Part shown: in pieces, positions 3,001 through 6,260 of the stretch
Layout: every line of letters starts with the position of its first letter
How positions within the stretch are numbered: the stretch's first letter is position 1
Assembly (NCBI RefSeq): GCF_006265175.1
Contig: NZ_VDCQ01000052.1
Span: 1-64,000, forward strand
Source of the DNA: Paenibacillus hemerocallicola
GTDB taxonomy: Bacteria > Bacillota > Bacilli > Paenibacillales > NBRC-103111
DNA length: 64,000 nucleotides
Reading direction: 5' to 3'
Made by a program: the position numbers and the translations under genes
Notes under the pieces: generated by a model
Seen by the model: the letters and a program-made list of their open reading frames with translations, nothing else
Databases searched by the model: none
What the model was told of the DNA's origin: nothing

Positions 3001-4037
3001 GCTTCTTTGAACGCTTCCTTCAATTGGAACTCGTATTCGCCATTTTGCTCCGTCACGCCGCCAGCCAAAGTACCCGTATCGCCTGCGACCGGTACCGTAA
3101 CCGCTTGTCCCGTAATTTGCGAAGCCGGCTCGACGACGGAGATGCGGTTCGTCGAAGTGAAGCCCGTCGACGAATCGTAGTTTTTGATCGACGAGTTCAT
3201 CTCGTTGTACAACTGACCCAGGTTTTTCGCGAGCGAATCGCCGGTAGAGGTTTGTCCGATCGTGAAGATGTAGTTGCCTTGTCCGTCGATTTCCAGACGG
3301 GACCCTTCGCTCTTCGTCGTTCCTTGACGCACGGTAATCGTTTTTCCGTTCAGGTCCGTGCCGTTCTCGGACGCTTGGACGCCGATGCCGACCGTCAGGT
3401 TGATCAATGCTTTCTCGCCTTTGATGCTTTGCGTGTTCTCGGTAATTTCCGATACGCTGCCGGTTGCTTTGCTCGTGGAGCCTTGGACCGAAGTCGAGGA
3501 GGATTCCACTTTCACGCTGCTCGCTACCGTTTTCAGCGCGGTTACCGTACCTTGTGCTACGCCTTTGACACCGTCCGTTACGGTGTTGACAGCCGCGGCC
3601 GATTCCACAACCGCCGCATTTTTACCTTTCAATAACGACTGCGTGTTGAACTCGGTCGTATTGCCGATCCGGTTGATCTCGGACGTCAGCTGGTTGATTT
3701 CCTTCTGGATTTCCTCGCGGTCGACGGATACGTTCGTGTCGTTCGCCGCTTGGGCCGCCAGCTCGCGCATACGCTGCAGGATGGAGTGCGTCTCGTTGAG
3801 CGCGCCTTCCGTCGTTTGGATCATCGAGATGCCGTCTTGCGAGTTGCGTTGCGCTTGGTCCAGACCGCGGATTTGCGCGCGCATTTTCTCGGAGATCGCG
3901 AGACCTGCCGCGTCGTCGCCCGCGCGGTTGATGCGGAGACCCGAGGACAGCTTCTCGATCGATTTGCCGCTTGCCGTCGAGTTCGTGCTCATTTGACGGT
4001 ACGTGTTCAGTGCTGCGATGTTGTGATTAATTCTCAT
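1..4037 (-). CDS. hag: Giant flagellin, 3' end cut by window edge
   Basis: Open without a stop from the ATG at 4037 to the window edge (1,345 codons), so the C-terminal D0 helix lies outside. It forms the flagellar filament after type III export. Residues 1 to about 150 are a standard flagellin N-terminal D0/D1 domain ([16 protein letters not shown], then [20 protein letters not shown]). A C-terminal D1 start (ALGV block) appears at about residue 1270. Between them lie about 1,100 residues of Ser/Thr/Gly/Asn-rich beta repeats, several like flagellin-IN motifs (for example [16 protein letters not shown]). Typical flagellins are 270-500 residues, so the variable region is enormously expanded. 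No HExxH protease motif was seen, which argues against flagellinolysin. The ribosome binding site AAGGAGG lies 9 bases upstream and is itself inside a hairpin. The gene lies downstream of csrA on the same strand. Confidence 0.93.
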
Positions 4038-4043
4038 TGCTGG

Positions 4044-4058
4044 ATTCCTCCTTGGAAT
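4044..4058 (-). promoter_or_regulatory. CsrA-type hairpin over the flagellin ribosome binding site
   Basis: On the mRNA strand ATTCC-AAGGA-GGAAT forms a perfect 5-bp stem with AAGGA in the loop. The Shine-Dalgarno sequence AAGGAGG is inside the hairpin. This is the position of CsrA site BS2 in the B. subtilis hag leader, where CsrA binding blocks ribosome access. The fold is seen in the sequence; CsrA binding is inferred. Confidence 0.7.
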
Positions 4059-4062
4059 GTTT

Positions 4063-4084
4063 AGGTGAACATCCTTTTTCACCT
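4063..4084 (-). promoter_or_regulatory. Second CsrA-type hairpin in the flagellin leader
   Basis: The mRNA reads AGGTGAA-AAAGGATG-TTCACCT: a perfect 7-bp stem with an 8-base loop holding AAGGATG, which matches the core of the CsrA consensus (A-R-GGA-U-G). It lies just upstream of the ribosome-binding-site hairpin, as BS1 does in B. subtilis hag, so a CsrA dimer could bridge both. Confidence 0.7.
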
Positions 4085-4135
4085 TTGGAACGATGAAGCT
4101 ATATAATAAACCGCCCCGGAAAGAGCGTTTATTAC

Positions 4136-4222
4136 CCAAAAAACGACAAAAAGGACGAGTTTATCCCGTCTGCACTCTTGGCATCCTGCCATTCGTCAGA
4201 CTTCGACAAAACTCGTCCTTGA
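4136..4222 (-). terminator. Triple-stem terminator-like RNA element between csrA and the flagellin (element 1)
   Basis: On the mRNA strand the outer arms AAGGACGAGTTT and AAACTCGTCCTT pair over 12 bp and are followed by a U-rich tract (TTTTTGTCGTTTTTT), as in an intrinsic terminator. The roughly 46-base interior is structured: helix GTCTG/CAGAC encloses hairpin TGGC-AGGAT-GCCA with GGA in the loop. The same architecture recurs upstream of csrA (4474-4556). It could terminate csrA transcripts or act as a regulated attenuator before the flagellin. I do not recognise it as a named riboswitch class. Confidence 0.7.
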
Positions 4223-4260
4223 GACCTAAATATAGTTGCTGTAAAATTAATAATCAGTGA

Positions 4261-4428
4261 TTACCGGGAGGCATAGTCGGCTTCGTATACTTCACCGCGG
4301 AGTATCGGAATTTCTTTCGGCGCATCGATGGCGAGACGGAGATCCCCATCCTTGGTTCGAACGACTTGAACCTTGACGTCATGTCCAATCATTACATATT
4401 CTCCGGGTTTTCGGCCCAATACCAACAT
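4261..4428 (-). CDS. csrA: Carbon storage regulator CsrA
   Basis: A 55-residue protein beginning MLVLGRKPGEYVMIG and ending with the IDAPKEIPILRGEVYE block that holds the conserved RNA-binding arginine. CsrA is a dimeric RNA-binding protein that represses translation by occupying GGA motifs in hairpin loops; in Bacillus it represses flagellin synthesis and is antagonised by FliW. The ATG at 4428 follows GAGGAGG by a normal distance; longer in-frame upstream starts only add non-homologous residues. At 55 residues it is slightly shorter than usual (60-80), but the fold-defining part is complete. The flagellin gene follows on the same strand. No fliW lies next to it here, unlike the usual fliW-csrA pair. 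Confidence 0.95.
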   Translation of the reverse strand: MLVLGRKPGEYVMIGHDVKVQVVRTKDGDLRLAIDAPKEIPILRGEVYEADYASR

Positions 4429-4447
4429 CTGAGATCCTCCTCTATGT

Positions 4448-4467
4448 GCTGCGTCCTGCCGCGCAGC
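4448..4467 (-). promoter_or_regulatory. GGA-loop hairpin in the csrA leader
   Basis: The mRNA reads GCTGCG-CGGCAGGA-CGCAGC: a 6-bp stem with CAGGA in the loop, about 20 bases before the csrA start. It contains the 9-mer GCAGGACGC, identical to the core of the neighbouring element at 4474-4556. It is a plausible CsrA autoregulation site. Confidence 0.5.
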
Positions 4468-4473
4468 CGCCGG

Positions 4474-4556
4474 AAACAAAATAAGGATGGCTAATAAGAC
4501 CGTCTCCCTTCCGCGTCCTGCGGAGAAGAGACGAACCTTACTAAGCCATCCTTGAC
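4474..4556 (-). ncRNA. Triple-stem attenuator-like RNA element in the csrA leader (element 2)
   Basis: Outer arms AAGGATGGCT and AGCCATCCTT (10 bp, extended by a bulged AGTAAG/CTTATT helix) enclose helix GTCTC/GAGAC, which encloses hairpin TCCGC-AGGAC-GCGGA. A U-rich stretch (TTATTTTGTTT) follows. The order of parts, the GCAGGAYGC core and the start UCAAGGAYG match element 1 downstream of csrA. It lies between the sigma-D promoter and csrA, so it is transcribed as leader RNA. Function is inferred only: attenuator, CsrA binding platform, or both. Confidence 0.6.
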
Positions 4557-4613
4557 TTGTCGTAATTATTCGATTTACGGGACTATATGCCCAAATTTTC
4601 GTGCCTACTACCA

Positions 4614-4641
4614 ATATCGGCGGTCCATATCCAAAAGTTTA
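4614..4641 (-). promoter_or_regulatory. Sigma-D (flagellar) promoter for csrA
   Basis: On the minus strand TAAA is followed by 16 bases and then GCCGATAT, an exact match to the B. subtilis sigma-D -10 element with an allowed spacer. Transcription would start near 4606, giving csrA a leader of about 175 bases that includes element 2. I found no comparable sigma-D match directly before the flagellin. Confidence 0.75.
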
Positions 4642-4709: not shown

Positions 4710-6260
4710 ATGACGGTCTTACATAGAGGAAGCAGTACAATTTTTTACAAGCTTGAACCGGGCGATGCGGAGCCGGATGCGGAGCAGCTTGTCTTTGTGC
4801 ATGGAAATAGGACGACCCATACTTGTTTCGACTTGCTCGTCCCTTTCTTGAACGACCGATTTCCGCTTATCCGCTACGACCTCCGGGGATTCGGCCGGAG
4901 CGATCTGGGCGATGCGCCGCTCAGCTTGGAAGCGTATTGCGACGATCTGCTGCATCTGGTCCGGACCTTGGGGATACGTCCGTTTCATCTAATCGGATAC
5001 GGCTTCGGAGCGATTGTTGCCGCCCGGTTCGCCGTGCTGTATCCCGAGTCGGTCAAAAGCATGGTGCTCATCTCTCTTCCGTTCAGTCCAGATCCTTCGG
5101 CGGTCAACAATCCCGATTGCTTGGAAACGCCATCATCCAAAGGAACTGCAGGTTCGGTCGATAGGCTCGCCGATTTGATGGCCAGTCTTCCGTCGGACCA
5201 CCCGATACACGGGAAAATCGATTTCGCCGCACTCCCCTCCACTTGCCATTGGATTACCGAATTAAGCATGCGGTATCAACCTATAGACGATTTGGAGCGC
5301 TTGTCCGTCCCGACGCTGCTATTATGCGGGGAAGAGGAAAATTCGTCCCCCGTCTACTTGTCCTTGATGGCAGCCTTCTACTTATCCGAGTACAAGCTCT
5401 ATACGGTGCCGGATTCCGCTTATATGGTCTTGCTGGACCAGCCCGCTCTTACGGCAACCTGGATTGCGAACTTTATTGGCAAGCTCGGTCGGAAGCCGAT
5501 CGCAGAAGAAGCCAAGCCGAAGTCCCGCGATATGCAGCAATATATGAAGCAATTGATAAAGATTGGGGAAGCGGCTGTCGCTTCCGGTGACGAACTGCGA
5601 GTAGAGCTATTGGAAGGCTTTCACGTGTATGCAAACGGAATGGAGATCAAGGGCGGCTGGAACCAGCGGTTTGCCAAAAATATTTTTCTATACTTGCTCC
5701 TCCACCGATCCGTAAGCCGCGATCAGCTGTGCGAGACGTTATGGCCGAATCTTCCGCTCGGCAAAGCCCGCAGCTACTTGAGAGTATATTTATCCCATCT
5801 CAAAAAACTGCTGGAGCCGTCGAACCGCGCGCCCGCTTTTCTTATCATGGAACGCGAGGATGTCAGCTTATATGGAAGAATAGTTTGCGACGCGCTCGAT
5901 TTCGTGCAGGATATAACGATAGCCTCCCAAGAGGAGGATGACCGGAAGAAGCTGGCGCAATGCCGCAAAATATTTCAAACCTTGCCGGTCACGTTCTTTC
6001 AGAGCCTGTACGACGACTGGTTCCTCATGATGCGCGAGGAATGGGAGCATAATCTGGAAAGCCTCGCGGTCTGGATGGCCGATTATTTTATCCAGCAAGG
6101 CAACCCGCAGGAGGCCTCGGTTCATCTGAAGCATATGCTCCGCATACTGCCGAAAAACGAAACGCTGGTCGACAAGCTTATTGTCTGCTACGAGCGAAGC
6201 AAGGATGTGCCCAGCAAGGAATACTGGAAAAAGCAAAAGGATTTGTTTGACGCTTCTTAA
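4710..6260 (+). CDS. Alpha/beta-hydrolase-fold sensor fused to BTAD transcriptional regulator
   Basis: A 516-residue fusion. Residues about 20-265 are an alpha/beta hydrolase fold (FVHGN oxyanion region, YDLRGFGRSD, HLIGYGFGA). Residues about 294-385 are an OmpR-type winged helix and about 390-510 a helical BTAD repeat domain, as in SARP-like activators. The nucleophile elbow G-Y-G-F-G has Gly98 instead of the catalytic Ser, and the region that should carry the catalytic His reads PDSAYMVLLDQP with Ala237. The hydrolase half is therefore probably a ligand-binding sensor, not an enzyme. The gene diverges from csrA with 69 bases to the sigma-D promoter; its ribosome binding site (GGAAGGA) is weak. 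Target genes are unknown. Confidence 0.85.
   Translation: MTVLHRGSSTIFYKLEPGDAEPDAEQLVFVHGNRTTHTCFDLLVPFLNDRFPLIRYDLRGFGRSDLGDAPLSLEAYCDDLLHLVRTLGIRPFHLIGYGFGAIVAARFAVLYPESVKSMVLISLPFSPDPSAVNNPDCLETPSSKGTAGSVDRLADLMASLPSDHPIHGKIDFAALPSTCHWITELSMRYQPIDDLERLSVPTLLLCGEEENSSPVYLSLMAAFYLSEYKLYTVPDSAYMVLLDQPALTATWIANFIGKLGRKPIAEEAKPKSRDMQQYMKQLIKIGEAAVASGDELRVELLEGFHVYANGMEIKGGWNQRFAKNIFLYLLLHRSVSRDQLCETLWPNLPLGKARSYLRVYLSHLKKLLEPSNRAPAFLIMEREDVSLYGRIVCDALDFVQDITIASQEEDDRKKLAQCRKIFQTLPVTFFQSLYDDWFLMMREEWEHNLESLAVWMADYFIQQGNPQEASVHLKHMLRILPKNETLVDKLIVCYERSKDVPSKEYWKKQKDLFDAS

Follow-up and report, generated by a model that had tools for sequence, protein, structure and literature searches.

Paired GGA-capped terminators around a short csrA gene and a flagellin gene of Paenibacillus hemerocallicola are candidate CsrA-responsive attenuators

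In the 64,000-nucleotide stretch of Paenibacillus hemerocallicola DNA analysed here (contig NZ_VDCQ01000052.1, positions 1 to 64,000; hereafter the window), a short csrA paralogue, csrA2, is followed by a flagellin gene (flagellin 2), and each of the two genes is preceded by a strongly folded RNA element, T1 before csrA2 and T2 before the flagellin. An initial annotation had placed a look-alike pair of elements at 4474-4556 and 4136-4222 and read them as attenuators or terminators of the CsrA type; both are present there on the minus strand, and at the level of sequence this interpretation is supported. Our data indicate that a single conserved RNA element, a predicted intrinsic terminator, is present here twice, as T1 and T2. 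As for their function, we give about an even chance to their being attenuators read by a CsrA dimer, which would bridge two motifs in each element and keep the terminator open. All features of the T1-csrA2-T2-flagellin module lie on the minus strand, and their coordinates refer to the window; the principal features are the following:

4614..4641, minus strand: SigD-type promoter, TAAA-N16-GCCGATAT, recognised by sequence, with transcription start expected near 4606.
4474..4556, minus strand: T1, GGA-capped terminator in the csrA2 leader (fold z -6.3; homologues in 60 of 80 loci).
4547..4554, minus strand: T1 5' CsrA-type motif CAAGGAUG at the base of the 5' arm, a site predicted from sequence position.
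4513..4521, minus strand: T1 apical GCAGGACGC, a loop with the CsrB-type repeat CAGGACG (fold, sequence and apex counts).
4261..4428, minus strand: csrA2, short CsrA paralogue of 55 residues, with R6 and R44 retained (sequence comparison).
4136..4222, minus strand: T2, GGA-capped terminator in the csrA2-flagellin interval (fold z -3.8; homologues in 46 of 80 loci).
4214..4221, minus strand: T2 5' CsrA-type motif CAAGGACG at the base of the 5' arm, likewise predicted from sequence position.
4180..4190, minus strand: T2 apical GGCAGGAUGCC (fold and sequence).
Starting at 4037, minus strand: flagellin gene, flagellin 2 (sequence).

T1 and T2 each fold into a single long hairpin of stacked helices with a U-run at its end, at -47.4 kcal/mol for T1 (z -6.3 against shuffled sequences) and -35.0 kcal/mol for T2 (z -3.8); the tails are UUAUUUUGUUU in T1, the weaker of the two, and UUUUUGUCGUUUUUU in T2. 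Both elements are therefore of the form expected of an intrinsic terminator, i.e. a stable hairpin directly followed by a U-run. The shared order initially reported for the pair (UCAAGGAYG, a GUCUS/SAGAC helix, a GCAGGAYGC apex, a closing helix and a U-rich tail) was recovered; of the "triple-stem" shape, the stacked helices hold and the branching does not, as each element is one long hairpin with CAGGAYG in its apical loop. Two motifs of the CsrA type are present in each: CANGGANG, in the basal part of the 5' arm, and CAGGANG, in the apical loop. The latter is the CsrB repeat, since CsrB loops carry CAGGA(U/A/C)G bound by CsrA, and the CsrA site obtained by in vitro selection (SELEX) is RUACARGGAUGU (PMC7652899, PMC5027483); the suspected link to CsrA thus holds at the sequence level.

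The elements had not been recognised as a described RNA family, and Rfam 15 agrees: in the window and 12 relatives, no family reached its gathering score over T1 or T2. The CsrB/RsmZ sponge families gave no match at curated score, PrrB_RsmZ attaining 15.2 bits against a cut-off of 44. At permissive thresholds the matches were at chance level only, among them PrrB_RsmZ at about 15 bits and a wrong-strand Bacillaceae-1 hit. A cyclic dinucleotide, also suggested as a ligand, finds no support, as no Rfam riboswitch matched in the window.

In order to evaluate how far the arrangement is conserved, the csrA2 protein was used as a query, which yielded 80 loci in Bacillota spanning Paenibacillus, Bacillus and relatives, Clostridium, Desulfosporosinus, Tepidibacter and others. 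A flagellin gene lies within 1.5 kb downstream of csrA in 70 of these loci; the element occurs upstream of csrA (T1) in 60, downstream (T2) in 46 and on both sides in 40. Of the 194 terminators predicted close to csrA, 90 have a CAGGANG apex; at other places in these loci 15 of 4640 do, usually next to another csrA or a flagellin gene. Among the 90 elements selected by the apex alone, another GGA lies close to the 5' base in 89 (control terminators: 550 of 1997, 28%) and ANGGANGA in the 5' arm in 82 (35 of 1997, 1.8%). In an alignment of 44 elements, built without structure information, 96% of cells pair and double-sided changes number 148 vs 43 in shuffles, a covariation signal that is abolished by sliding the pairing partners along the alignment. 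The GG of the 5' motif is invariant in this alignment, whose seed was chosen partly on GGA (the unbiased GGA count being the 89 of 90 from apex-only selection), and its partner is C or U (GU 23 and GC 21 at one position, GC 28 and GU 15 at the other). Other stem pairs change on both sides, and A-U would pair better against the U's facing GG. Since GG stays fixed despite a changing partner, the alignment points to recognition of the 5'-motif strand itself.

A covariance model, for which T1 scored 63.2 bits and T2 56.3 bits (both belong to the seed), matched the plus strand of the 80 loci 132 times, always beside a csrA: 130 lie within -800/+1500 of the query csrA and the other two adjoin a second csrA (L132). 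Whole-genome model searches returned 26 matches, 23 of them adjoining csrA and the remaining three weak or shortened to 40-48 nt; because few candidates were scored in each of the 400 genomes searched, rarity across them is not informative. Two genomes of other families outside the seed (G216 and G430) have the full order promoter-T1-csrA-T2-hairpin-flagellin. The linkage to csrA, and mostly to flagellin, that had been anticipated from a covariance search is thus observed. The 31 control regions, almost all of which surround main csrA genes, gave no full-length match and one partial match of 42 nt (E 0.004), so an element common to all csrA genes was rejected. The resemblance of T1 and T2 within one locus could also suggest a chance likeness or functionless repeat copies, but the strong compensatory change across Bacilli and Clostridia, the strict csrA linkage and the absence of copies scattered through the 9.65 Mb genome, other than at a second csrA locus, make this hardly conceivable. 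A dispersed repeat family was likewise rejected: a DNA search of the genome returned the element only, and the model added just that second csrA locus.

Several variants of the module were noted. The second locus in the same genome (L047 7168-6963, G000:C89) is a decayed copy in which csrA is followed by two tandem GGA-capped terminators and a second csrA reduced to its first codons, with no flagellin nearby. A 7.4 kb contig of Paenibacillus mesophilus carries a csrA2-like gene (L044/L057) that has neither T1 nor T2 and is surrounded by small genes that by eye resemble a mobile element. A subgroup of Bacilli (L110-L112, L116, L118, L127, L129, L130; L045) has two tandem T1 elements before csrA; in the same loci the GGA motifs AAGGACGAG and CAAGGAAG remain after csrA and the T2 terminator is gone. 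In a Tepidibacter, a csrA-csrA-flagellin module has a c-di-GMP-II riboswitch upstream of it (L106 5396-5479).

In regards to the transcription unit, of the 60 T1 loci 34 have a SigD-type promoter (at most two mismatches) no more than 200 nt upstream of T1. Across 24 T2-to-flagellin intervals SigD-type promoters were not above chance, except at one locus, and sigma-A-type signals were not enriched; a separate flagellin promoter was accordingly rejected. With a promoter upstream of T1 and none between T2 and the flagellin, the terminators lie inside the transcription unit, between promoter and gene as in an attenuator, and flagellin transcription seems to pass both of them. T1 and T2, interrupting the unit in this way, seem to require regulated or partial read-through. 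The terminators could instead be constitutive, with CsrA sites that come into play once transcription has ended, for instance to protect RNA 3' ends or to localise RNAs. Such a role would have a parallel in CsrB, which CsrA shields near its 3' end from RNase E (PMC5027483). This is very unlikely, however, as T1 would precede the gene that it serves, flagellin 2 would be left without a recognisable promoter, and the 5' motif would go unexplained. An RNA-only switch with a riboswitch-like antiterminator is disfavoured by the leaders, whose pairing with the 5' half of T1 does not exceed chance (34 leaders, mean z 0.07).

The apex presents GGA in a hairpin loop within the core CAGGA(U/A/C)G or ARGGAUG, as expected of a CsrA site. 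One CsrA dimer bridges sites 10-63 nt apart, with an optimum above 18 nt (PMC7652899), and the GGA-to-GGA start spacing in the elements (23-35 nt, median 31) is within that range. Forcing the 5' motif to be unpaired in 69 elements costs 11 kcal/mol on average and leaves a gap of at least 3 nt between stem and U-run in 47 of 69, vs 1 of 69 in the unconstrained fold; T1 and T2 of the window both lose the terminator base. Because the motif pair fits the CsrA rules and a blocked 5' motif opens the base, CsrA-dependent antitermination is favoured. The SigD promoter would start a single transcript running through T1, csrA2, T2 and flagellin 2, and by default the hairpins would form and transcription would stop at T1 and T2. 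In the nascent RNA the 5' motif CANGGANG would leave the polymerase some 31 nt ahead of the apical CAGGANG hairpin; a single CsrA dimer could bridge the two and hold the 5' motif single-stranded, and with the terminator base removed the polymerase would read on. In this way CsrA would exert feedback on csrA2 and make flagellin transcription depend on how much CsrA is available, in addition to its usual translation block at flagellin leader sites. The analysis establishes the conservation, structure, motif placement and linkage of the elements and the promoter layout; CsrA binding, the control of read-through and the direction of that control are what we infer.

The same apical hairpin could also act in the opposite direction, with bound CsrA nucleating the terminator, so that csrA2 would be under negative autoregulation and flagellin transcription would fall. 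In the psl leader a hairpin is stabilised by RsmA (PMC7652899), and negative autoregulation would suit the usual repressor role of CsrA, but the 5' GGA motif is left without a role, and its occupation would open the terminator base; we consider such pro-termination distinctly unlikely.

The genome (9.65 Mb) has five csrA genes. The main csrA comes after fliW and before another flagellin; csrA2, which is not beside fliW, belongs to a group of short paralogues (median length 58 residues vs 77 for main CsrA). The csrA2 product aligns with CsrA/RsmE chains of solved structure (2jpp, which we take to be an RNA-complex entry, and 5dmb, presumably a FliW-complex entry); R44 of CsrA contacts RNA. It is without the C-terminal extension that FliW contacts in CsrA (PMC7652899), and would therefore need another antagonist, a part that T1 and T2 themselves could play. 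The short SigD-dependent RNA ending at T1 (about 130 nt in the window) and the csrA2 mRNA end at T2 would then sequester CsrA on their apical hairpins, lowering free CsrA and releasing flagellin translation, as a CsrB-like sponge in Gram-positives. The identity of the apex with the CsrB repeat and the promoter preceding T1 are consistent with such a decoy. It is nonetheless fairly unlikely, given that the terminated hairpin exposes just one accessible GGA, that 14 of 34 leaders have no further GGA before T1, that the conserved 5' GGA buried in the stem is left unexplained, and that the terminators sit between promoter and genes.

Antitermination by a bridging CsrA dimer has its own difficulties. 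In 22 of 69 elements the hairpin folded with a blocked 5' motif still extends almost to the U-run; 14 of the 80 csrA2 loci have no element, and some Bacilli retain GGA motifs after csrA where the terminator is lost. The five csrA genes mean several possible CsrA binders, and the net logic is not obvious, since antitermination would raise csrA2 and flagellin transcription while CsrA represses flagellin translation. All of these points weigh against it.

The remaining features of the module are as follows:

4448..4467, minus strand: third hairpin with GCAGGACGC, just 5' of the csrA2 ribosome-binding site (fold z -1.5).
4103..4135, minus strand: additional pre-flagellin hairpin, UAAUAAACG..CGGUUUAUUA (fold), often with a 6-nt self-complementary loop in relatives.
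4063..4084, minus strand: flagellin-leader hairpin AGGUGA..GGAUG..UCACCU (sequence), kept in most relatives, presumably comparable to CsrA site BS1 of hag.
4042..4055, minus strand: flagellin ribosome-binding site CCAAGGAGGAAUCC, which contains GGA (sequence) and which we take to resemble CsrA site BS2 of hag.

The csrA leader hairpin had been said to carry the motif of the elements, and GCAGGACGC is indeed found at 4467-4448. This hairpin is weakly stable on its own; its counterpart in a congener (G003) retains the stem GCTGCG/CGCAGC, with GGA still in the loop. Between T2 and the flagellin, a conserved hairpin has 6 self-complementary nt in its loop in 26 of 41 loci vs 2.6 in shuffles, a count that is not independent because the loci are partly close relatives. 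The loops (GCGCGC, TGGCCA, GGGCCC, GCCGGC, CCTAGG and TCTAGA; e.g. L062 6296-6317, L111, L121, L122) make these hairpins resemble kissing-loop RNA dimerisation hairpins, and the window copy at 4135-4103 is degenerate (CCGG). The gene at 4710-6260 of the window, divergent from the module, appears by eye to join an alpha/beta hydrolase to a BTAD-type regulator, and a similar regulator stands beside another orphan csrA of the genome (L005).

Known systems share parts of this design, the closest being Rho-dependent termination under CsrA control (pgaA, Legionella gap) and the hairpins of CsrB. CsrB/CsrC and RsmZ-type RNAs also have CAGGA(U/A/C)G in CsrA-binding hairpin loops (PMC7652899, PMC5027483), whereas T1 and T2 are single hairpins in intrinsic terminators, in cis to csrA and flagellin. 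In the Escherichia coli pgaA leader, which has several sites, CsrA affects transcription termination (PMC7652899), but there it promotes Rho-dependent termination, in contrast to the intrinsic hairpin and U-run of T1 and T2. In the Legionella pneumophila gap operon and thiamine pyrophosphate (TPP) riboswitch, CsrA stabilises an open RNA form and thereby favours read-through (PMC5338858); gap is however Rho-dependent and within coding sequence, the TPP case involves a riboswitch, and neither is a conserved element at csrA. In the Bacillus subtilis hag leader, regulated by CsrA and FliW, GGA sites at the ribosome-binding site allow CsrA to repress translation (PMC7652899), but this control is at the translation level and no T1/T2 are described, while csrA2 here is short and not beside fliW. 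The rplJL attenuator of B. subtilis (L10-L12) is an instance of a protein autoregulating its own operon by transcription attenuation (PMC4538822), with another protein and another RNA. A search of the open-access literature found no paper on CsrA and intrinsic termination at flagellin loci. CsrA sites and attenuators are thus known kinds, and their union in a conserved csrA/flagellin intrinsic terminator appears new, judged by open-access papers.

The recurrence of the element pair in many Bacillota suggests that CsrA decides read-through into its own gene and the flagellin. T1 and T2 may then represent a widespread RNA family, so far undescribed, by which CsrA governs intrinsic termination, the paired dual-site attenuators coupling CsrA supply to its own gene and to a dedicated flagellin in a FliW-independent module, a proposal that could equally well prove right or wrong. 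With about 80 nt per element and defined motif changes that keep the stem, it is directly testable. CsrA is known mainly as a translational regulator, and in the few cases where it is described as acting on termination, Rho or a riboswitch takes part; two CsrA motifs on a conserved intrinsic terminator would, if confirmed, be an added mode of CsrA action. A 2020 review of CsrA leaves open the joint action of FliW and RNAs (PMC7652899), and the present module would give one example of how flagellin output is linked to a short CsrA that has no FliW-binding extension.
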